A stretch of 37,212 nt of DNA from an uncultured Pelagibacteraceae bacterium (GTDB lineage: Bacteria; Pseudomonadota; Alphaproteobacteria; Pelagibacterales; Pelagibacteraceae). Shown here in pieces: positions 1,461-34,269 of the stretch (its first letter is position 1; every line of letters starts with the position of its first letter). Under the pieces are notes generated by a model. The model worked only from the letters and a program-made list of their open reading frames with translations. It was not told the origin of the DNA and searched no databases. Where the stretch lies: contig CABYJR010000004.1 of the NCBI GenBank assembly GCA_902519445.1, forward strand, positions 1 through 37,212, read 5' to 3'. Made by a program: the position numbers and the translations under genes.

Positions 1461-2923
1461 CGGAAAATAAATTTGATTATTTTATAAATGGAGAAAAAGG
1501 TAAATGGGAAGTAATTATAGGTTTAGAAGTACATGCCCAAGTCTTATCAAAATCTAAACTTTTTTCTTCGTCTTCTGCTAAATTTGGGGCTGACCCCAAT
1601 ACTCAAGTAAGTTTAGTTGACTCAGCTTTCCCAGGAATGCTTCCAGTGATAAATCAATTTTGTATAGAACAAAGTGTCAAAACTGGCTTGGGATTAAAAG
1701 CTAAAATAAATTTAAATTCCGTTTTTGACAGAAAAAACTATTTTTATGCTGATTTACCACAAGGCTATCAAATTTCACAATATAAAAATCCTATAGTTGG
1801 AGAAGGGGAAGTTATACTTGATATGCCGTACGGGACTAAAAAAATTGGCATTGAAAGACTACATCTTGAGCAAGATGCAGGAAAAAGTATTCATGATATG
1901 GATCCGGACAATTCATTTGTAGATCTTAATAGATCAGGTGTTGCTTTAATGGAAATTGTAAGTAAACCAGATTTGAGGTCACCGGATGAAGTGAATTCAT
2001 ATATTAAAAAGCTTAGATCAATAATGAGATACCTCGGAACTTGTGATGGCAATATGCAAGAAGGATCTTTGAGAGCTGATGTTAACGTTTCTGTTAGAAA
2101 AGTTGGAGATAAAAAATTTGGAACAAGATGTGAAATTAAAAATGTTAATTCAATTAAATTCATGCAAATGGCAATTGAATATGAAGCAAAAAGACAAGTT
2201 GAAATATTAGAGTCAGGTGAAAAAGTAAATCAAGAAACAAGATTATATGACACAAAAAAAAACTCTACTAGATCTATGAGATCAAAAGAAGATGCTCATG
2301 ATTACAGATATTTCCCTGATCCAGATTTATTACCACTTAAATTAGATAAAGGTTTAATTGATAAATTAAAAAAAAATTTACCAGAATTACCAGATGAAAA
2401 AAAAGAAAGATTTATCAAAGAACATAATCTTTCTTCCTATGAAGCAAACATTTTAGTTTCAGAAAAAGACATATCTGATTATTATGAAGAGGTAATTAAA
2501 GAGTGTGATAAAAAATTAGCCACCAATTGGATTATCGTTGAATTATTTGCTGTTTTAAATAAAAAAAATCTTTCTATTTCACAATCTCCAATTAGTTCTA
2601 AAAATTTATCTTCATTAATTAAAATGATTTCTTCTGGAAAAATTTCTGGAAAAATTGCAAAAGATGTTTTTGAAAAAATGCAAGCAGGAAACAAAAATCC
2701 TATTCAAATTGTTGAAAAAGAAGGTTTGTTACAGCAAAGTGACCCAAAAAAATTAGAAAAGATAATTTTAGATGTGCTAACAAATAACCAAGACAAGGTT
2801 GCCCAATATAAATCTGGTAAAGAAAAACTTTTTGGTTATTTTGTTGGTGAAGTTATGAAAATATCAAAAGGAAAAGCTAATCCACAACTTGTAAATGAAA
2901 TTCTTAAAAAGAAACTTCATTAG
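1457..2923 (+). CDS. gatB: Glutamyl-tRNA(Gln) / aspartyl-tRNA(Asn) amidotransferase subunit B
   Basis: This subunit binds the misacylated tRNA and carries out the ATP-dependent transamidation with ammonia delivered from GatA. It shows the N-terminal GatB/E catalytic domain ([11 protein letters not shown] near residue 20, [19 protein letters not shown]) and a C-terminal YqeY-like tRNA-binding tail (about residues 340-488). I chose the ATG at 1457, which overlaps the gatA TGA as ATGA and gives 488 residues. An upstream in-frame TTG at 1445 would add only four residues inside gatA and is less likely. The O-methyltransferase gene follows after 5 bp. Together with gatA it implies that this organism makes Gln-tRNA and/or Asn-tRNA by the indirect route. 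Confidence 0.97.
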
Positions 2924-2928
2924 ATAAA

Positions 2929-3585
2929 ATGGGATCAAATCTTGTAATAACAAAAGAAATTGAGAATTATATTAACAATCATTCGCTGAAACTCACAGCA
3001 ATCCAAAATGAAATAATTTCTTATAATAACAGTTTAGGTGATATTAAAAGAATGCAAATATCTATCTCGCAATGTCATTTTTTGCATTTAATTATTAAAG
3101 CATCTAATGCAAAGAAAATTTTAGAGATAGGTACTTTTACTGGGTTAAGCGCATTAACCATGTCATTGGCCCTGCCTAACGATGGAAAGCTGGTTACATT
3201 AGATAAAAATAAGGAAACCAATAAAACTGCAGCTAATTTTTTTGAAAAAGCTAATCAGAAAGATAAAATTGAATCAATCCTTGGTCCAGCATTAGAAAGC
3301 CTAAATAATTTGAAGATAAAAGGAAACAAATTTGATCTTATTTTTATTGATGCCGATAAAGAAAATTATAAAAATTATTATGTTCAATCACTAGATTTAT
3401 TAGAAAAAAATAACTTGATAGTAATAGATAATGTTTTATGGCACGGCGAAGTTACTGATCATAAAAAACAGGATAAACTTACTACCAGTATTAGGGATTT
3501 TAATTCATATGTTAATGAAGATAAAAGAACAGAAAACTTAATTATTCCAATTGGCGATGGTTTTACAGTATGTAGAAAGTTGTAA
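2929..3585 (+). CDS. SAM-dependent O-methyltransferase, family 3 (caffeoyl-CoA OMT-like)
   Basis: The 218-residue protein is a class I SAM-dependent methyltransferase of the catechol/caffeoyl-CoA O-methyltransferase type. The glycine-rich SAM motif is ILEIGTFTGLSAL (near residue 64), followed by the acidic strand KLVTLDKN. The metal and substrate region reads IFIDADKENY, then VIDNVLWHGEV. This pattern fits a divalent-metal-dependent O-methyltransferase. The natural substrate cannot be read from the sequence. The stop TAA shares its last base with the ATG of the next gene (trhO-like), so the two are probably co-translated. It follows gatB by 5 bp; this reflects a compact operon more than a shared pathway. 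Confidence 0.85.
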   Translation: MGSNLVITKEIENYINNHSLKLTAIQNEIISYNNSLGDIKRMQISISQCHFLHLIIKASNAKKILEIGTFTGLSALTMSLALPNDGKLVTLDKNKETNKTAANFFEKANQKDKIESILGPALESLNNLKIKGNKFDLIFIDADKENYKNYYVQSLDLLEKNNLIVIDNVLWHGEVTDHKKQDKLTTSIRDFNSYVNEDKRTENLIIPIGDGFTVCRKL

Positions 3586-4484
3586 TGTATTATATTTCAG
3601 GATTTTATAAGTTTAAGCAAATAAATAATATTAAAATAAATAAAAAAAAATTACAGACTTTTTTAATTAATAATAGTGTCAGAGGGACGATAATAATTTC
3701 AAAAGAAGGAATTAATGGGACCATATCAGCAAGGAAAAAAAATTTAACTTTAGTATTAAATAAAATAAAAAAAACATTCAGATTTAAAAACTTTGATAGT
3801 ACAAACTTGTCTTCAAGTAAGTTTAAACCTTTTCATAGAGGAAAAGTTAAAATTAAAAAAGAAGTTGTACCCATGGGCATAAGAATTATAAAAAGGAAAA
3901 CAAAAAACCATGTAGAGCCAGCTAAATGGAATAAACTAATAAAAAATAAAAATACTTTTTTAATTGATGCAAGAAAACCATTTGAATATGAACTTGGATC
4001 TTTTAAAGAGTCAATAAATCCTAAAGTTGATAATTTTAGAGAATTTCCAAAATATTTAAAAAATTTAAAAAAAGAAAAAATAATAGCTATGTTTTGTACG
4101 GGAGGAATCAGATGTGAGAAAGCAAGTATTTTTCTTGAAAAAAAAGGTTTTAAAAACGTATACCAATTAAAAGGAGGAATTATTAATTATCTTAAAAAAA
4201 TTAAAAAAAGTGACAGTTTATGGAAAGGAGAATGTTTTGTTTTTGATAACAGAGTTTCGGTAAAACATGGCCTGGAGATCGGAAGCTATTCTATGTGTAG
4301 TGGCTGCAGAAAGCCTATATCTGAAAAAGATAAAAAATCAAAAAAATATGAGGAAGGTGTGTCATGTCCAAATTGTCACGATTACTTAAAACCCTCACAA
4401 AAGGAAAGATTTAGAATGAGACAGAAGCAAATAATTCTTGCTAAAGAACTTGGAAAAAAGCACATATTCCAAAAAGAATTTTGA
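3585..4484 (+). CDS. trhO: TrhO/YceA-type tRNA uridine(34) hydroxylase with rhodanese domain
   Basis: The 299-residue protein matches the TrhO (YceA) family, known to make 5-hydroxyuridine at tRNA position 34 with oxygen. The N-terminal domain carries SKEGINGTISA (about 39-49). The rhodanese domain (about 113-210) contains LIDARKPFEYELGSF and the catalytic loop MFCTGGIRCEKAS, with C171 at the loop start. A cysteine-rich C-terminal segment (CSGCRKPIS near 258, then CPNCHD) is typical of the family. Its start overlaps the stop of the methyltransferase by one base. A tRNA-modification role near gatAB is plausible but this is an inference. Confidence 0.88.
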   Translation: MYYISGFYKFKQINNIKINKKKLQTFLINNSVRGTIIISKEGINGTISARKKNLTLVLNKIKKTFRFKNFDSTNLSSSKFKPFHRGKVKIKKEVVPMGIRIIKRKTKNHVEPAKWNKLIKNKNTFLIDARKPFEYELGSFKESINPKVDNFREFPKYLKNLKKEKIIAMFCTGGIRCEKASIFLEKKGFKNVYQLKGGIINYLKKIKKSDSLWKGECFVFDNRVSVKHGLEIGSYSMCSGCRKPISEKDKKSKKYEEGVSCPNCHDYLKPSQKERFRMRQKQIILAKELGKKHIFQKEF

Positions 4485-4485
4485 A

Positions 4486-5826
4486 ATGAATTTATTAAAA
4501 GATCCTATTCCTGGTTTAATTAAAAAAATAGCTTTACCAGCTAGTATAGGTACACTTTTTCAAACACTTTTTAATATAGTTGATACTTTTTTTGCCGGAA
4601 CCATTTCAGCAGAAGCTCTATCAGCGTTAGCAAAATCATTCCCAATTTATTTTATAATTATTGCTGCTTGTGTTGGCGTAACTGTTGGCGGCACCTCTTT
4701 AATTGCAAATTCGATAGGCGAAAATAATAAATCTAAAATACATGGATATTTTGCACACACAATTATTTATGCAATTATAGTATCAATTTTCATTACTGCT
4801 GTAGGTTTGTTTTTTGCACCTTATTTATTTGAGTCAATGGGTTCTGAAACTGAAGTAGTTCAATTAGGACTTTCGTATACTAATGTTGTTTTTTCAGGCT
4901 CGATTGTTTTTATTATGCTAGTAGCTTTAAATTCACTTTTACATGCAGACGGAGATACTAAAACTTATAGAAATGTTCTTATTTTAAGTTTTTTCCTAAA
5001 TATATTATTTAATCCATTATTTATATTCGGTTTTGGTCCTATACCAGCTTTTGGAATATCAGGTATAGGAATAGCTACTATTCTTGCTCAATTTATTGGA
5101 TTGGTGATTGTTTTTATTAAAGCATCTAATTCAATAAGAATAAAAAATATTTCTCTAAAGGATTTTAATTTCAATTCAAAAATACTCACTAATTTATTTT
5201 TTCAATCAGCACCAATTTCCGCGGCCTTATTATTGATATCTGTAGGTAATTTTATTATTTTAACTTATATTGGAGTTTTCGGTGAATTTGCAACAGCTGG
5301 TTATGGATCTGCAGCACGTTTTGAGCAAATATTATTACTCCCTGTACTTGGTTTAAACACAGCCATCATATCAATTATTGGACAAAATTATGGATCAAAA
5401 AGTTATGCAAGAGTAAAAGAATCATATTTTAAGGCAGTATTTTATGGTTTTAATCTTATGATAATTTCTGGTTTAATAATTTTTTTTTCCGCGGACAAAA
5501 TAGTTTCTATTTTTTCTGATAATCAAGAAGTAATTAAATATGGTACTTTGTATTTAAAAATATCTGCGCTTATTTTTCCAGCCTATCCAATATTCTTTAT
5601 TAGCAATGGATTTTTTATGGCAATTAAAAAATCATCATACTCAATGTATTTAAATATTATTAGAAATGTTATTTTACCAATACCAACAATATTAGTAGCT
5701 AATTTTTTTGATGGAGGATTTGATACCTTTTTTTGGAGTTATTGTTTTTTTAATTGGTTGTACGTTATATGTTTATTTATTTATGTAAAAAGTTATATTA
5801 AAAAAAATTTAAATAAGATTAGATGA
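4486..5826 (+). CDS. MATE family efflux transporter
   Basis: A membrane protein of about 446 residues with about 12 hydrophobic segments. The N-terminus (DPIPGLIKKIALPASIGTLF, then TLFNIVDTFFAGTIS) is the MATE/NorM/DinF signature, and an internal repeat (QSAPISAALLLISVGNF) marks the second half. Family members export cationic drugs or metabolites by Na+ or H+ antiport in the inner membrane. I chose the ATG at 4486, one base after the trhO stop; an in-frame TTG at 4438 would add 16 hydrophilic residues inside trhO and is unlikely. The 3' end overlaps the end of the convergent soxG by 18 bp. Substrate unknown. Confidence 0.9.
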   Translation: MNLLKDPIPGLIKKIALPASIGTLFQTLFNIVDTFFAGTISAEALSALAKSFPIYFIIIAACVGVTVGGTSLIANSIGENNKSKIHGYFAHTIIYAIIVSIFITAVGLFFAPYLFESMGSETEVVQLGLSYTNVVFSGSIVFIMLVALNSLLHADGDTKTYRNVLILSFFLNILFNPLFIFGFGPIPAFGISGIGIATILAQFIGLVIVFIKASNSIRIKNISLKDFNFNSKILTNLFFQSAPISAALLLISVGNFIILTYIGVFGEFATAGYGSAARFEQILLLPVLGLNTAIISIIGQNYGSKSYARVKESYFKAVFYGFNLMIISGLIIFFSADKIVSIFSDNQEVIKYGTLYLKISALIFPAYPIFFISNGFFMAIKKSSYSMYLNIIRNVILPIPTILVANFFDGGFDTFFWSYCFFNWLYVICLFIYVKSYIKKNLNKIR

Positions 5827-19127: not shown

Positions 19128-19520
19128 ATGAAAATATTTGGATTAGGTACTGATATAGTGAATATAAAAAGATTAGAAAAAATTTTAAAAAAAAAAAATA
19201 GCGGTTTTAAAGCAAGAATCTTTTCTAAAAATGAAATTTTATATTGTGACAAAAAAAGCAACCCTATTCCGTTTTATGCAAAAAGATACGCAGCAAAAGA
19301 AGCTTTAAGCAAAGCTTTGGGCACAGGTATAAGAAAAGGTGTTAATTTTAAAGATATTGAAGTGTCAAATAATAATCATGGTAAACCATACATAAAGTTA
19401 AAAGGAGAAACTGCAACCTTCCTAAAGAAAAAAATTAAAAAAAAAAAATATTCGATTTATCTTTCTTTGTCAGATGATTTGCCTTGGGCGCAAGCAACAG
19501 TAATAATATCTTATAATTAA
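19128..19520 (+). CDS. acpS: Holo-[acyl-carrier-protein] synthase
   Basis: Transfers 4'-phosphopantetheine from CoA to a serine of apo-ACP. The 130-residue protein shows GLGTDIVNIKRL with metal-binding D9, and RYAAKEALSKALGTGI with E58. The gene contains two runs of twelve A residues (19187-19198 and 19437-19448), both encoding lysine stretches; these may be prone to polymerase slippage. It overlaps lepB by one base. The pdxJ-acpS-lepB-rnc order is typical of alphaproteobacteria. Confidence 0.95.
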   Translation: MKIFGLGTDIVNIKRLEKILKKKNSGFKARIFSKNEILYCDKKSNPIPFYAKRYAAKEALSKALGTGIRKGVNFKDIEVSNNNHGKPYIKLKGETATFLKKKIKKKKYSIYLSLSDDLPWAQATVIISYN

Positions 19521-20248
19521 TGAAAAAAGTAATCATAGAAAATATAAAAACTTTATTTTATGCTTTGATAATTGCTATAATTATACGTAGTATTTTATTT
19601 CAACCATTTTATATTCCGTCATCTTCAATGGAACCCAATTTGTTAGTTGGTGACAGATTGTTCGTATCAAAGTATTCATACGGGTATAGTCGGCATTCAT
19701 TACCATTTAGTCCAAAAATATTTACAAATAGAATTTTTGAAAAAAAACCAAAAGCAGGTGATATTATTGTTTTTAAAACACCAGCCGACAATAGAACAGA
19801 TTATATTAAAAGACTTATCGGCATGCCGGGTGATAAAATCCAGTTTGCAAACAATGATTTGTACATAAATGATGTAAAAGTTATAAAGGAAAAAATAAAT
19901 AATCAATTCGAAATATCATGTGGTGGTCAAATTATAGATGTTGATTTCTATAAGGAAACTTTACCTAATGGTAAAAAATATATCGCTGTTTATAGAAAAG
20001 AAGGAACAATGATAAATTCAGATAAATATATTGTTCCTAAAAATCATTATTTTTTCATGGGTGATAATAGGGATTGTTCAAAAGACAGCAGATACTTGAG
20101 TAGTGTAGGTTATGTTAATTTTACAAATTTTGTAGGAAAGGCTCAAGTAATATTTTTTTCAAACAATAAAGAAAAGGGTTCTTTTTTTAAAATATGGAAG
20201 TGGAAGGATTCAATTAGAACTTCACGTTTTTTTAAAAAAATCTATTAA
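19520..20248 (+). CDS. lepB: Signal peptidase I
   Basis: Inner-membrane serine protease that removes signal peptides from exported proteins. One transmembrane segment spans about residues 10-27. Box B contains the nucleophile S36 (PSSSMEPNLLVGD) and box D the general base K97 (YIKRLIGMPGD); MGDNRDCSKDSRY is the C-terminal box E. The 242-residue length is normal for alphaproteobacteria. It overlaps acpS by one base, and rnc begins 3 bp downstream. Its substrates would include the Slt precursor encoded in this window. Confidence 0.96.
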   Translation: MKKVIIENIKTLFYALIIAIIIRSILFQPFYIPSSSMEPNLLVGDRLFVSKYSYGYSRHSLPFSPKIFTNRIFEKKPKAGDIIVFKTPADNRTDYIKRLIGMPGDKIQFANNDLYINDVKVIKEKINNQFEISCGGQIIDVDFYKETLPNGKKYIAVYRKEGTMINSDKYIVPKNHYFFMGDNRDCSKDSRYLSSVGYVNFTNFVGKAQVIFFSNNKEKGSFFKIWKWKDSIRTSRFFKKIY

Positions 20249-29274: not shown

Positions 29275-31368
29275 ATGATAGGAACACTTAATATAATAAT
29301 AGGAGCGGGATTATTAGCTATCCTATATGGATATATTGTTGGTAAACAAATTTTATCTTCAAGCCCTGGGAATTCAAAAATGCAGGAAATTGCAGCAGCT
29401 ATTCAAGAAGGAGCTCGGGCATACTTAAATCGTCAATATAAGACAATTGCTATAGTTGGAGTAATTATTTTATTTATAATTACATTTGCCTTAGGATTTT
29501 GGGTAGGCATAGGTTTTTTCATTGGAGCTTTTTTGTCTGGCGCAGCTGGTTATGTTGGAATGTTAATGTCTGTGCAGGCTAATGTAAGGACAGCTGAAGC
29601 GTCAAGAAAAGGTTTGTCAGCTGGTCTTAATATAGGATTTAAATCAGGTGCAGTAACGGGAATGTTAGTTGCGGGTTTAGCGCTATTATCTATAGCAGCA
29701 TATTATTTAGTTTTATTAAAATTTAATGTTGAGAGCAGAGAAACAATAAATGCTCTTGTAGGATTAGGTTTTGGAGCTTCTCTAATATCTATTTTTGCAC
29801 GATTAGGAGGAGGTATATTTACCAAGGGAGCAGATGTTGGAGCTGATTTAGTTGGCAAGGTTGAAGCTGGAATTCCAGAAGATGATCCAAGAAACCCAGC
29901 TGTTATTGCTGACAACGTAGGGGATAATGTTGGTGATTGCGCAGGCATGGCTGCAGATCTTTTTGAAACATACGCTGTTACAATTGTTGCAACAATGGTT
30001 TTGGCATCAATATTTTTTCAAGATAATTTAAATATGATGATATATCCATTAGCTATTGGAGGATCTTGTATTATTACTTCTATAGCTGGAACTTTTTTTG
30101 TTAAACTTGGTAAAAACAATAATATTATGGGAGCTTTATATAAAGGATTTATTGCTACTGCGATTCTTTCTGTAATAATTTTATATCCTGTCACAGATAA
30201 AATTATTGGATTAAATAATATATATTCATCTAATAATGCAACTTTTACAGGCTTTGGCCTTTTTCAATGTGGAGTCATAGGTTTAATCATAACCGGTTTA
30301 ATTATTTGGGTAACTGAGTATTACACTGGCACAAAATTTCGTCCTGTCATTAGTGTAGCAAAATCCTCTGTTACAGGACATGGAACAAATGTTATTCAAG
30401 GTTTAGCTGTTTCATTAGAAGCAACAGCCCTACCTGCAATAATAATAGTTGGTGGAATTTTATTGACTAATCATATCGCGGGTTTGTTTGGTATAGCTAT
30501 AGCTGTCACTACAATGCTTGCTTTAGCTGGCATGGTGGTTGCGCTTGATGCTTATGGTCCTGTGACTGATAATGCCGGAGGAATAGCTGAAATGTCCAAT
30601 CTTCCTAAAAATGTGAGAAAAACAACTGATGCTCTTGATGCTGTTGGAAATACTACTAAAGCTGTTACCAAAGGTTATGCTATAGGTTCCGCTGGTCTTG
30701 GTGCCTTAGTTTTGTTCGCAGCTTATACGGAGGACATTAAATTTTTTTCAAATGTTAAAGGATCTAATTTAGAAAATATATCTGTTAGTTTTGATCTATC
30801 AAATCCTTTTGTCGTAGTAGGTTTATTATTTGGAGGAATGCTCCCATACCTTTTTGGTTCTATGTCAATGCAAGCTGTAGGAAGGGCTGGAGGAGCAGTA
30901 GTACTTGAAGTTAGAAGACAATTTAAAAAAATACCAGGTATTATGAAACGAAAAAGAAAACCAGATTATGGTAGATTAGTTGATTTATTGACTAAAGCTG
31001 CCATTAAAGAAATGATAATACCTTCTTTATTACCAGTTCTATCTCCAATATTTTTATATATTTTTATTTTAAATATAGCTGGTATGGAAGCTGCCCTTTC
31101 GTCTTTAGGAGCTATGTTATTAGGAGTTATTATTACAGGATTATTCGTAGCTATTTCAATGACAGCTGGGGGAGGAGCGTGGGATAATGCAAAAAAATAT
31201 ATCGAGGATGGTAAATTTGGAGGCAAAGGTTCCGAAGCTCATAAAGCTGCTGTTACAGGTGATACAGTTGGTGATCCTTATAAAGATACTGCTGGTCCGG
31301 CTGTAAACCCAATGATTAAAATAACTAATATTGTAGCTTTATTATTATTAGCAGTTATTGCACACTAA
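29275..31368 (+). CDS. hppA: H+-translocating membrane pyrophosphatase, K+-independent type
   Basis: An integral membrane pyrophosphatase (697 residues, about 16 transmembrane segments) that couples PPi hydrolysis to proton transport. The catalytic loop reads [20 protein letters not shown], followed by [18 protein letters not shown]; the C-terminal conserved segment is [18 protein letters not shown]. In [18 protein letters not shown] the residue at 462 is lysine, the marker of the K+-independent H+-pumping subfamily (the K+-dependent form has alanine). SAR11 and other alphaproteobacteria carry this enzyme, probably to recover energy from biosynthetic PPi. It is a single-gene unit, ending 2 bp from the convergent bamE stop. 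Confidence 0.97.
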
Positions 31369-31370
31369 TA

Positions 31371-31823
31371 TTATTTTCTTTTTTGTATCATTTTTTGTCT
31401 TACACTTGACAAGAAACTATAAATAAAATTTTCTTTTCTCAATTCATTAACCGTTTCATCTTTTGCAAATTTTATCTCGTTCATATGTTTTTTATCATAA
31501 AACTCTTTTCTTTGAAGAATCCCATATTTGTCAAAATCTAGAACCAAAACATTGTTTTTCAAAAGATAATTTCTACCAAGCTTTAATAATTTACCTCTAG
31601 TTCTTGTTCTTTCAATATATATCCACAAATTATCATTCGACATACCTTTTGTAGAAGGCTGGCCTAAAATAGATATAGCGTCATTTTTGTTAGATACATT
31701 GACTTGTATTAATTTTTCTCTTTTCTTAAGATAAGCTACGCCATGTGTTTTTATTACTTCATTTTGACTACAATTAAATGTAAAAAATAATATAAAAACG
31801 AAATAAAATATTTTTTTTATCAT
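31371..31823 (-). CDS. bamE: Outer membrane assembly lipoprotein BamE (SmpA/OmlA family)
   Basis: A 150-residue lipoprotein of the beta-barrel assembly machinery. The signal peptide MIKKIFYFVFILFFTFNC ends in a lipobox-like FTFNC with the acylated cysteine at residue 18. The SmpA/OmlA domain follows (about 35-115; AISILGQPSTKGMSNDNLWIY is the typical core). The ATG at 31821-31823 is needed for the signal peptide, yet it directly abuts the start codon of the plus-strand bc1 chaperone gene (CATATG). No Shine-Dalgarno sequence is visible in the region that would form its leader, which lies inside the neighbouring coding region. Confidence 0.88.
   Translation of the reverse strand: MIKKIFYFVFILFFTFNCSQNEVIKTHGVAYLKKREKLIQVNVSNKNDAISILGQPSTKGMSNDNLWIYIERTRTRGKLLKLGRNYLLKNNVLVLDFDKYGILQRKEFYDKKHMNEIKFAKDETVNELRKENFIYSFLSSVRQKMIQKRK
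31764..31793 (+). promoter_or_regulatory. Candidate promoter of the bc1 chaperone-rpmF-plsX run, inside bamE
   Basis: TTGACT (31764-31769) and TAATAT (31788-31793) are separated by 18 bp; a start near 31800 would give a leader of about 24 nt before the ATG at 31824. The whole element lies within the bamE signal-peptide codons, read on the opposite strand. Confidence 0.4.
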
Positions 31824-32348
31824 ATGAACAATTTACCAAGTCATCACAAATTTAATGAACTAAACTTATATAACAATATTCTTTCTTTATCACGTAATAA
31901 ATTATTTTATACAAAATTTGCCCTCGCTGACACATTCCAAAATAGGATAAATTTAATTTTTTTTCATATTTCCTTCATTTTTATTAAAGTTAATAAGAGT
32001 GAGAAGAAAAATGATTATAAGGTCTTTCATCAAAAATTATTTGATACTGTATTTAATCAAATAGAGATGAATATGAGAGAATTAGGATTTGGCGATGTTA
32101 CGGTAAATAAAAATATGAAATTTTTAGTTAAATCTTTTTATAACATTCTCCTTTTTTCTGAGAAATTTAATGACAAAAATAATGAATATAAAAGAACCTT
32201 TTTTAAAGAATGTTTAAAATGTAATATTAACAGCAAAACCGCTAATTATGATAATTTAATAGCCTATTTTAGAGATTTTCAAACTTTTTGTTTTGATTTA
32301 AGTTCTGATAGTGTATTAAAAGGTGAATTTAAATTTAAATTTAATTGA
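31824..32348 (+). CDS. Ubiquinol-cytochrome c chaperone family protein (CBP3-like)
   Basis: The 174-residue protein matches the bacterial relatives of mitochondrial Cbp3, which helps assemble cytochrome b of the bc1 complex. The family pattern is LYNNILSLSRNKLFYTKFALADTFQNRINLI (about 15-45), a hydrophobic helix, then FNQIEMNMRELGFGDVTVNKNMK and LVKSFYNILL. Divergent in sequence but the bamE / chaperone / (DUF177) / rpmF / plsX arrangement is seen in alphaproteobacteria, and it supports the call. Here no DUF177 (YceD) gene lies between it and rpmF. Its ATG abuts the bamE start codon with no intergenic base. Confidence 0.75.
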   Translation: MNNLPSHHKFNELNLYNNILSLSRNKLFYTKFALADTFQNRINLIFFHISFIFIKVNKSEKKNDYKVFHQKLFDTVFNQIEMNMRELGFGDVTVNKNMKFLVKSFYNILLFSEKFNDKNNEYKRTFFKECLKCNINSKTANYDNLIAYFRDFQTFCFDLSSDSVLKGEFKFKFN

Positions 32349-32357
32349 TTTAATAAT

Positions 32358-32537
32358 ATGGCTGTTCCAAAACGAAAAACATCAAAATCAAGAAGAAATA
32401 AGCGAAGATCACATCATAAAATTTCTTCAATAAATATAATTGAAGATAAGAAATCAGGTGAATTTCGGCTTTCTCATCATCTCGATTTGAAAACTGGTAT
32501 TTATAATGGAAAGCAAATTTTAGATCCTAAAAAATAA
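32358..32537 (+). CDS. rpmF: 50S ribosomal protein L32
   Basis: A 59-residue protein starting [20 protein letters not shown], the diagnostic N-terminus of bacterial L32; later [23 protein letters not shown] fits the alphaproteobacterial form. It has no zinc-binding cysteines (the C-minus type). It begins 9 bp after the bc1 chaperone gene and ends 13 bp before plsX. The rpmF-plsX linkage is ancient and widespread. Confidence 0.96.
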
Positions 32538-32550
32538 TTTTTCAATATTT

Positions 32551-33561
32551 ATGAATGATAAAGTAAAAATTGCAGTAGATGCAATGGGTGGTGATAACGC
32601 GCCTAAAAAAATTATAAAAGGCATTGAATTATCTTTAAAGCAAAAAAAGGATAATTATTTTTATTTATTTGGTAAAAAAGATTTAATAGAAAATGAGGTA
32701 AAAAATAATAATTTAGTACGTGAGAATTCTGAAATTATTGATGCAAAAGATATTATATCAGATGACGAAAGCCCACTTGCAGCTGCTAAGAAAAGCAAAG
32801 AAACTAGCATGTGGAAATCTATCGAATTTTTAAAAAATAAAAAAGCTGATATAACATTGTCAGCTGGAAATACGGGAGCAATGTTAGTTATATCAAGACT
32901 CCTTCTTAATAATATTAAAGGAATCAATAAACCAGCTCTTGCAGGGTTATGGCCAAATCAAAATAACATGAACATAGTTTTGGATCTTGGTGCAAATATA
33001 GTTTGTGATGAAAAAAATTTATGTGATTTTGCATCCATGGGATCAGCTTTATTTAAATCACTTTTTGAAAATGAAAAACCAAGGGTAGCCCTTTTAAATG
33101 TCGGGCTGGAAGAAAATAAAGGTAACGATGTTTTGAAAAAAACTTTTTCAATAATGAAAAAAAATGACATAAAAAATTTTGATTTTACAGGATATATAGA
33201 AGGCAATCATATAATGGATGGAGATGTTGATGTTATAGTTACAGATGGATTTACTGGAAATGTTGCGCTTAAAACTGCTGAAGGTACTGCAAATTTTATA
33301 ACAAAAAATTTAAAAAAATCATTGAACAAATTATCAATTTTATTTTCCTATTCTTCTCTTAAGAGATTTAAAAATAAACTAGATCCAAGAAAATATAATG
33401 GAGCTATTTTTCTAGGATTAGAAAGTCCACTTGTAAAAAGTCATGGTGCAACTGATTCAGTTGGCTTCGCTCATTCTATTAATGTATGCAATCAAATTAT
33501 AAATGCTAACCTTATTGAAAAGATTAAATCTAATCTTATTACTATTGACGATAAATTATAA
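32551..33561 (+). CDS. plsX: Phosphate acyltransferase PlsX
   Basis: Converts acyl-ACP to acyl-phosphate, the first step of phospholipid synthesis in the PlsX/PlsY route. The 336-residue protein has VAVDAMGGDNAPKKI at the N-terminus, TLSAGNTGAML, LLNVGLEENKGND, and DVIVTDGFTGNVALKT. Length is normal. fabH, the usual next gene in proteobacteria, is missing; ihfA starts 20 bp downstream. Confidence 0.96.
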   Translation: MNDKVKIAVDAMGGDNAPKKIIKGIELSLKQKKDNYFYLFGKKDLIENEVKNNNLVRENSEIIDAKDIISDDESPLAAAKKSKETSMWKSIEFLKNKKADITLSAGNTGAMLVISRLLLNNIKGINKPALAGLWPNQNNMNIVLDLGANIVCDEKNLCDFASMGSALFKSLFENEKPRVALLNVGLEENKGNDVLKKTFSIMKKNDIKNFDFTGYIEGNHIMDGDVDVIVTDGFTGNVALKTAEGTANFITKNLKKSLNKLSILFSYSSLKRFKNKLDPRKYNGAIFLGLESPLVKSHGATDSVGFAHSINVCNQIINANLIEKIKSNLITIDDKL

Positions 33562-33581: not shown

Positions 33582-33878
33582 ATGGTAAAAAAAAATTTTA
33601 CTAGAAAAGAACTATCAAATAAAATTTCTAAACGTATTGGTTTTTCCAAAAACTATTCATCGATAATTGTTGATGATTTTTTTGAAACTTTGATTCATCA
33701 TTTGGTAAAATTCAAACAAATTAAAATTTCATCATTTGGTACTTTTCAAGTTAAAAATAAAAAAGAAAGAATAGGAAGAAATCCAAAAACAAAAGAAGAA
33801 GCAAAAATTAGTTCAAGAAAGGTTGTTAAATTTAGACCTTCATCATTTTTTAAAAAAAAAATAAATGAAAAATATTGA
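33582..33878 (+). CDS. ihfA: Integration host factor alpha-type DNA-bending protein
   Basis: A 98-residue HU/IHF-family protein. The beta-arm sequence RIGRNPKTKEEAKISSRKVVKFRPS contains the intercalating proline P68, and the N-terminus FTRKELSNKISKRIGFSKNYSS is the IHF-alpha dimerisation part. It lies between plsX and a MerR-type gene, the usual ihfA place in alphaproteobacteria, which favours IHF-alpha over HU. The last 14 bp overlap the merR-like gene. Confidence 0.9.
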   Translation: MVKKNFTRKELSNKISKRIGFSKNYSSIIVDDFFETLIHHLVKFKQIKISSFGTFQVKNKKERIGRNPKTKEEAKISSRKVVKFRPSSFFKKKINEKY

Positions 33879-34269
33879 TAAATTTGAAAATAAATATAAG
33901 ACTATAGGAGAGGTTGCCAAGCAACTAAATCTTATTGACAAAAAAACTGGTCAATTACAAACACACACTATTAGATATTGGGAAACACAATTCAAACAAA
34001 TCAAGCCTACTATAATGGCTGGTCGACGAAGATATTACTCTAGTAAAAACATTAAAATATTAATTTTAATAAAATCTTTATTAAAAGAAAAAGGACTGAC
34101 AATAAGTGGAGTTAAAAAACTGTTAGAAGGAAAGAATTTAGAATCTATTGACGATACTATAAATTTTGGTGTATATAAGCCTACCAATTATTCTACGAAA
34201 ATTATTAGGGACAAATTAAAAAATATATCGAAAATTATTAAAGATTTAAAAAAAATAAAAAATGGCTAA
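33865..34269 (+). CDS. MerR-family transcriptional regulator
   Basis: A 134-residue protein with an N-terminal MerR winged helix-turn-helix (about 12-75): TIGEVAKQLNL, HTIRYWETQFKQIKP and AGRRRYYSSKNI. A short helical C-terminal tail lacks obvious metal-binding cysteines. The same regulator follows ihfA in most alphaproteobacteria; its targets are not known to me. The start overlaps ihfA by 14 bp and the end overlaps rpmG by 8 bp, so it is probably a constitutively expressed member of the operon. Confidence 0.88.
   Translation: MKNIDKFENKYKTIGEVAKQLNLIDKKTGQLQTHTIRYWETQFKQIKPTIMAGRRRYYSSKNIKILILIKSLLKEKGLTISGVKKLLEGKNLESIDDTINFGVYKPTNYSTKIIRDKLKNISKIIKDLKKIKNG

Follow-up and report, generated by a model that had tools for sequence, protein, structure and literature searches.

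In the window, by which we mean the whole 37,212-nt stretch of Pelagibacteraceae DNA that was analysed, bamE and a gene of the Ubiq_cyt_C_chap family lie on opposite strands with their start codons back to back in the palindrome CATATG. We consider it likely that these genes form an old alphaproteobacterial divergent pair, that deletions in streamlined lineages removed the spacer and brought the starts into contact, and that each promoter now lies within the initial codons of the opposite gene. The junction is a well-supported further case of an already known type of divergent overlap. Its notable aspects are its persistence across the order, the spacer present in relatives without the chaperone gene and the existence of a second pair, mutY/dciA.

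The junction and its two genes

The window reads TTTTTTTATCATATGAACAAT at 31812–31832 on the plus strand. CAT at 31821–31823 is the bamE start codon (minus strand) and ATG at 31824–31826 that of the chaperone gene (plus strand), with 0 nt between them. The preliminary description had reported this CATATG without an intervening base, and both the window sequence and its open reading frames bear it out. The features of the region are:

29275–31368, plus strand: H+-pyrophosphatase gene, converging on bamE with 2 bp between the stop codons
31371–31823, minus strand: bamE, outer-membrane assembly lipoprotein (ORF of 150 aa, start CAT 31821–31823, PF04355)
31821–31826, no strand: CATATG palindrome in which the start codons abut, spacer 0 (from the sequence and relatives)
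31824–32348, plus strand: Ubiq_cyt_C_chap family gene, presumed bc1 assembly chaperone (ORF of 174 aa, PF03981)
32358–32537, plus strand: rpmF (L32), following the chaperone gene in its presumed operon after a gap of 9 bp
32551–33561, plus strand: plsX, presumed chaperone operon
33582–33878, plus strand: IHF/HU family gene, termed ihfA here, presumed chaperone operon
33865–34269, plus strand: MerR-family gene, presumed chaperone operon

The bamE product matches the Pfam model BamE (PF04355; E 1.6e-7, 31.4 bits, cut-off 23.2) and carries a lipoprotein signal, with a signal peptide of residues 1–17 and a lipobox Cys18 recognized by eye; its class assignment combines the two. The chaperone product matches Ubiq_cyt_C_chap (PF03981; E 1.5e-14, 54.7 bits, cut-off 21.5) and is classified by this domain, its role as a chaperone being presumed. 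Neither product has a match in NCBIfam. These are two real protein genes on opposite strands whose 5′ ends touch, that is, a divergent abutting pair. Each has only one ATG, GTG or TTG between the upstream in-frame stop (TAA at 31788–31790 for the chaperone gene; for bamE, TTA on the plus strand at 31833–31835) and the conserved part of the protein. No Shine-Dalgarno (SD) core was seen in the window sequence upstream of either gene.

Since rpmF, plsX, the IHF/HU gene and the MerR gene follow closely downstream of the chaperone gene, the junction probably serves an operon and not the chaperone alone. No rpmF match (E up to 1e-3) was obtained between the chaperone gene and plsX in loci of family f2 (L031, L037–L047 and others), and one is present there in the family f1 loci whose stretches reach that far.

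Conservation of the layout within the order

Our order sample included 100 genomes, that of the window among them, and the chaperone was matched in 74. The genomes are small and AT-rich, in keeping with the SAR11 label used in the preliminary description. In all 74 loci, most of them from incomplete genomes, a bamE match adjoins the chaperone gene on the opposite strand. The distance from ATG to ATG was measured in 71 of these; taking the nearest pair of start codons it ranges from −27 to +12, which points to a conserved layout and not to errors in start calling, and taking the largest possible distance it ranges from −27 to +37 with a median of 0. Three loci have no ATG pair: L020 and L036, where the chaperone frame breaks at a run of T, and L052, where bamE has only a GTG start. 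In both L020 (genome G004) and L036 (G056) the break precedes the conserved part and may reflect sequencing error or decay; the bamE match of G004 also holds a stop.

The exact CATATG with a gap of 0 is found in 17 of the 18 loci from the same genus (g1), including that of the window, and in the single locus of genus g11. The exception in g1 is L020 with its broken chaperone frame, where by our own reading an ATG in another frame lies 4 nt away. Among zero-gap loci the flanking codons vary widely while the spacing is constant. This comparison of the junction with its relatives, which had been suggested as a check, came out in favour of the preliminary description. Other genera have registers of their own. 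These are constant in g2 (−24, 5/5) and g17 (+12, 3/3); g4 has −21 to −27 (4/4), g6 −6 (2/3), g3 −2 (3/4), g9 −8 or −2 (4/4), g8 −7, g10 −12, g15 −2 to +8 (27/28) and g16 both 11 and −6.

The protein segments encoded next to the junction are the most variable. Within the genus, mean pairwise identity is 24% for chaperone residues 2–13 versus 71% and 57% further in, and 35% for bamE residues 2–17 versus 73–74% beyond.

It is very improbable that the starts are misassigned and that one gene truly begins downstream, with an ordinary spacer left between the two. Poor conservation of chaperone residues 2–13 would agree with such an error, as would the finding that annotated divergent overlaps of more than 60 bp were all judged to be start errors (PMC2478687), but the overlaps seen here do not exceed 27 nt and bamE needs both its signal peptide and its lipobox. 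In the window neither gene contains another ATG, GTG or TTG upstream of its conserved part, and in 24 of the 71 loci where an ATG pair exists each of the two genes has just one canonical start. With one canonical start per gene and a layout kept in relatives, the earlier view that both starts are correct stands.

Spacers in the genus, the class and relatives without the chaperone gene

Background spacing was obtained with a home-made gene caller from a 437-kb sample, composed of the window and 20 stretches taken from ten relatives, of which nine belong to its genus. Among the 48 divergent pairs of this sample the median spacer is 84.5 bp; tandem and convergent pairs have medians of 4 and 2.5. 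Only two divergent pairs have a gap of 0 or less: bamE/chaperone, which is in the sample by choice, and mutY/dciA. A median intergenic length of 3 nt has been reported for the P. ubique genome (PMC2704228).

In the wider class, represented by 58 genomes including that of the window, the chaperone family occurs in 40, leaving 39 loci from other families. bamE lies divergently beside the chaperone gene in 37 of the 39, and the median spacer is 110 bp (33 loci measured). Six loci were left out, two for lack of a bamE hit (L104, L105) and four because no start fits the lipobox rule (L078, L093, L106, L152); L077, with a largest gap of −29 and a doubtful bamE start, was retained. We used the largest spacer over the possible ATG choices because chaperone starts are uncertain in GC-rich genomes. 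Even so, it is below 12 in three of the 33 loci: G109 (−2; 1.8 Mb) and G107 (+1; 1.4 Mb), which represent two other small-genome families of the class, and G115 (−29; bamE start doubtful). Spacer and genome size are correlated in the class (Spearman 0.45, p 0.009, uncorrected for phylogeny or completeness).

No chaperone match was obtained in 26 of the 100 order genomes, and the Pfam model also gave 0 matches in these 26, seven of which are at least 90% complete. They include all members drawn from genera g5 (4), g7 (3) and g12 (4), which, judging from these genomes, seem to be without a Ubiq_cyt_C_chap gene through loss. bamE was found in seven of the 26, and in one of them (G027, locus L186) the contig ends inside bamE, leaving six informative loci, all from g5, g7 or g12. 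In each of the six, bamE faces rpmF-plsX directly, with 108–133 bp between:

L187 (G049): 108 bp
L188 (G058): 114 bp
L189 (G041): 118 bp
L190 (G043): 133 bp
L191 (G028): 118 bp
L192 (G047): 125 bp

A profile built from the order revealed no chaperone ORF between bamE and rpmF in these six loci; the best E value was 0.0027, for an ORF elsewhere. That a spacer of ordinary size exists with no chaperone gene overlying it fits the idea of embedded promoters, but this DNA could also be a remnant. Taken together, a wide spacer in most other families, zero or negative spacing where the order keeps the chaperone gene and 108–133 bp where no such gene was detected indicate that a spacer was lost.

A second pair with nested starts

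The pair mutY/dciA was recognized by tblastn from proteins of L125. Among the best 30 loci fetched (L154–L183; 58 of 60 genomes matched, the weaker matches probably being related enzymes), 18, including that of the same genome as the window, have their start codons nested in ATGCAT with an overlap of 6 nt; in ten others the spacing lies between −12 and +21, and two have no ATG pair. The copy in the genome of the window is:

L157, G000:C1 about 19129–20082: mutY/dciA, start codons nested

The two pairs of the order thus have nested starts in common and differ in their genes, which are unrelated, and in their palindromic register. Because functionally unrelated pairs reached a similar outcome, compression is favoured over a purpose-built link, and by comparison of these sequences the layout is probably not specific to bamE and the chaperone gene as such. 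The preliminary description had seen in the junction a tie between the expression of BamE and that of a bc1 chaperone. We found no positive evidence for such a tie: the layout fits spacer loss during streamlining, and the same collapse is seen at mutY/dciA and in the two other small-genome families with gaps of −2 and +1. Our literature search found no work treating bamE together with the ubiquinol-cytochrome c chaperone. In L111 (16642–18430) only 10 bp separate the divergent genes of a further tight pair, one of the GNAT family and the other of DUF2334.

Promoter evidence

Three stretches around the junction are relevant to transcription:

31764–31793, plus strand: candidate promoter TTGACT-N18-TAATAT of the preliminary description, antisense of bamE lipobox-region codons, its form unconserved
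31774–31820, plus strand: putative promoter zone of the chaperone operon, within the codons for the bamE signal peptide (from the geometry and the inversion at locus L184, described below)
31827–31870, minus strand: putative bamE promoter zone, inside chaperone codons 2–16 (from the geometry and the low conservation of chaperone residues 2–13)

The string TTGACT-N18-TAATAT is indeed present at 31764–31793. In the region 31300–32600 there are 13 promoter-like hits, within the shuffled expectation of 11.2 (sd 3.8). Of the 18 zero-gap loci, ten have TTGACA lying antisense over the lipobox Cys codon and the one after it, and eight have another hexamer there, the window being among the latter; its TTGACT spans the two codons after the Cys. 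The ten perfect TTGACA hexamers arise because Cys-Gln is encoded as TGT-CAA, and the lipobox Cys is TGT in 14 of the 18, the same usage as in the genus sample (1067/1417). By eye, we saw no consistent −10 at 16–18 nt from the lipobox hexamer in the zero-gap loci and no TTGACA at the lipobox in the rows of family f2, in an alignment where the wrong Cys was picked in a few rows (e.g. L014, L045, L057, L067). The residue at position +2 of other lipoproteins provided too small a sample (three candidates in 440 called genes, this bamE included).

Promoter scores were compared to a null obtained by synonymous recoding of the overlying gene; the −10 and −35 matrices, like the SD cores, are approximations. 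In the 18 zero-gap loci there was no excess over this null on the chaperone side (z 1.33 and 0.75, the latter with the −35) or on the bamE side (z 0.58 and −0.27), nor was there any in 30 other loci with gaps of 0–12 (z 1.07, −0.83, −1.17 and −1.28). With the −35, the mean score upstream of the chaperone gene is 6.8 versus 5.18 for spaced genes, a value of 6.52 already resulting from the amino-acid sequence alone. Spaced first genes, taken as a control, exceeded shuffles with the −35 included (z 4.45, n=125) and did so only slightly without it (z 1.9). Upstream of 157 first genes, −10-like hexamers number 20–28 per 6-nt bin at 6–17 and at 24–35 nt from the ATG, versus 16–17 in shuffles, with no sharp leaderless peak. 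SD cores are rare, occurring in 22 of these 157 genes against 11.1 expected. Our literature searches turned up no transcript data: among the papers listed, none was a SAR11 map of transcription starts, as judged by title and the start of the abstract, and nothing direct was found on leaderless transcripts in Pelagibacter.

Two candidates were set aside. TTGACA or TTGACT at the lipobox was considered as a selected −35, but the hexamer changes with the codon used for Cys and with the residue that follows, and it is accompanied by no consistent −10; TGT usage equals that of the sample and the score equals the synonymous null. For the same reasons, the TTGACT/TAATAT box, antisense of lipobox codons and variable, is not supported as the chaperone promoter. 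A shared symmetrical promoter at the junction is disfavoured by geometry only, as a zero gap would leave no room for it if both mRNAs keep their start codons. The broader proposal that each promoter lies inside the coding region of the other gene remains the most likely arrangement, as the geometry and the relatives suggest.

Proposed origin and mechanism

We suggest that the ancestral regulatory spacer between bamE and the chaperone operon was deleted during streamlining. Where no spacer is left, transcripts that include both starts must begin inside the other gene or exactly at its edge, and each gene would be transcribed from its own promoter within the first codons of the other. The end of bamE encoding the signal peptide and chaperone residues 2–13 vary most, so promoter sequence could be carried there cheaply. 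If both mRNAs include their start codons, a zero gap has no room for a shared −10; two separate facing promoters would then be needed, and each transcript would cross the promoter of the other gene. The mRNAs would either have very short leaders without a Shine-Dalgarno sequence or be complementary at their 5′ ends. As a mechanical consequence, the two polymerases would interfere to some extent. Mutually exclusive initiation, as raised in the preliminary description, would be physically plausible, and none of this implies regulation dedicated to linking BamE with the chaperone.

Relation to known systems

Divergent overlaps are reported to be rare, with 331 in 58 species compared to 12737 codirectional and 1890 convergent ones (PMC2174442), and a count of 457 has been given as about 1% of well-characterised overlaps (PMC2478687). 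The bamE/chaperone pair resembles the divergent abutting or overlapping pairs that result from genome compression (PMC2174442, PMC2478687), in which the genes likewise occupy opposite strands and their 5′ ends touch or overlap. It differs in being backed by an order-wide comparison with genus-specific registers, whereas the divergent overlaps of more than 60 bp described in PMC2478687 were judged to be start errors.

Bidirectional promoters with a shared −10 (PMC12825309) produce two divergent transcripts from a short DNA segment with possible competition between polymerases, as may occur here too. Their start sites are described as flanking the −10 or lying within it, most frequently at a distance of 18 bp and otherwise of 10 or 23 (PMC12825309), room which the zero gap would not provide if both mRNAs keep their start codons. 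Excludons and noncontiguous operons (PMC7154746) involve neighbouring genes whose antisense-overlapping transcripts are able to interfere, as might those of this pair. In the excludon as described there, a long mRNA represses the overlapping neighbour, whereas the minimum overlap at bamE/chaperone, calculated from the genes alone, is 0–27 nt.

Divergent pairs of the genus mostly retain a spacer, so a pair which lacks it wherever the order keeps the chaperone, and has one where the chaperone is missing, would show how far promoters can move into coding sequence. Facing promoters and SD-poor initiation in SAR11-type marine bacteria could be studied at this junction as a naturally occurring system.

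Rearranged loci and alternative explanations

In genome G036 the bamE-chaperone-rpmF-plsX-ihfA block, flanked by merR and the pyrophosphatase gene, has undergone an inversion in place that leaves the −24 junction intact:

L184 (G036:C4:44000–53651), 2685–5120: inverted block

In G036, bamE is followed on its strand by merR and an L33-like gene (by eye), and at the opposite end of the block ihfA converges with the pyrophosphatase gene. Sense read-through from the pyrophosphatase gene cannot feed the chaperone gene there, and with the junction intact the simplest reading places the signals for both genes within the block. In G023 the pyrophosphatase position is taken by a GAPDH-like gene (by eye) and the divergent pair is kept. 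In G004 that position is occupied by a gene on the opposite strand (by eye), in a locus whose bamE and chaperone genes look broken.

These loci bear on the idea of a noncontiguous operon, in which transcription would reach the chaperone operon from the pyrophosphatase gene, running antisense through bamE, with only bamE having a local promoter. Such operons are known (PMC7154746), the pyrophosphatase gene converges on bamE with 2 bp between the stops and is matched in 69 of the 74 order loci, and no terminator-like site was found at 31300–32600. The inverted block in G036 and the replacement of the pyrophosphatase gene in G023 and G004 (the latter with its broken-looking pair) nevertheless argue against it. 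In most other families measured in the class, moreover, the spacer is long enough for a promoter, and we regard a noncontiguous operon as quite unlikely.

An evolved switch, in which selection keeps the zero spacing so that only bamE or the chaperone operon initiates at a time, is equally improbable. It would account for the zero gap in 17 of 18 genus loci, and polymerase competition at shared sites has been documented for bidirectional promoters once one direction is activated (PMC12825309). However, the register differs among genera (0, −24, −2, −6, −8, +4, +12), a similar collapse is seen at the unrelated mutY/dciA and in two other small-genome families, the six chaperone-less relatives have an ordinary spacer, and codon-level selection for promoters was not detected. 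A more general proposal, doubtful though slightly less so, is that start-nested divergent pairs (CATATG, CATG, ATGCAT) constitute a recurrent architecture of SAR11-type bacteria, cells with few regulators: facing promoters would lie wholly inside each other's coding sequence, mRNA 5′ ends would abut or be complementary, and mutual interference would couple outer-membrane assembly to the chaperone-rpmF-plsX-ihfA operon.

A similar inversion may have occurred in G029, where what seems to be the edge of an inversion carries an ORF with the beginning of bamE and the end of ihfA (L022 1145–1492; L185 2515–2826). The contig ends in plsX, and the bamE-ihfA fusion is possibly real or possibly an assembly fault.
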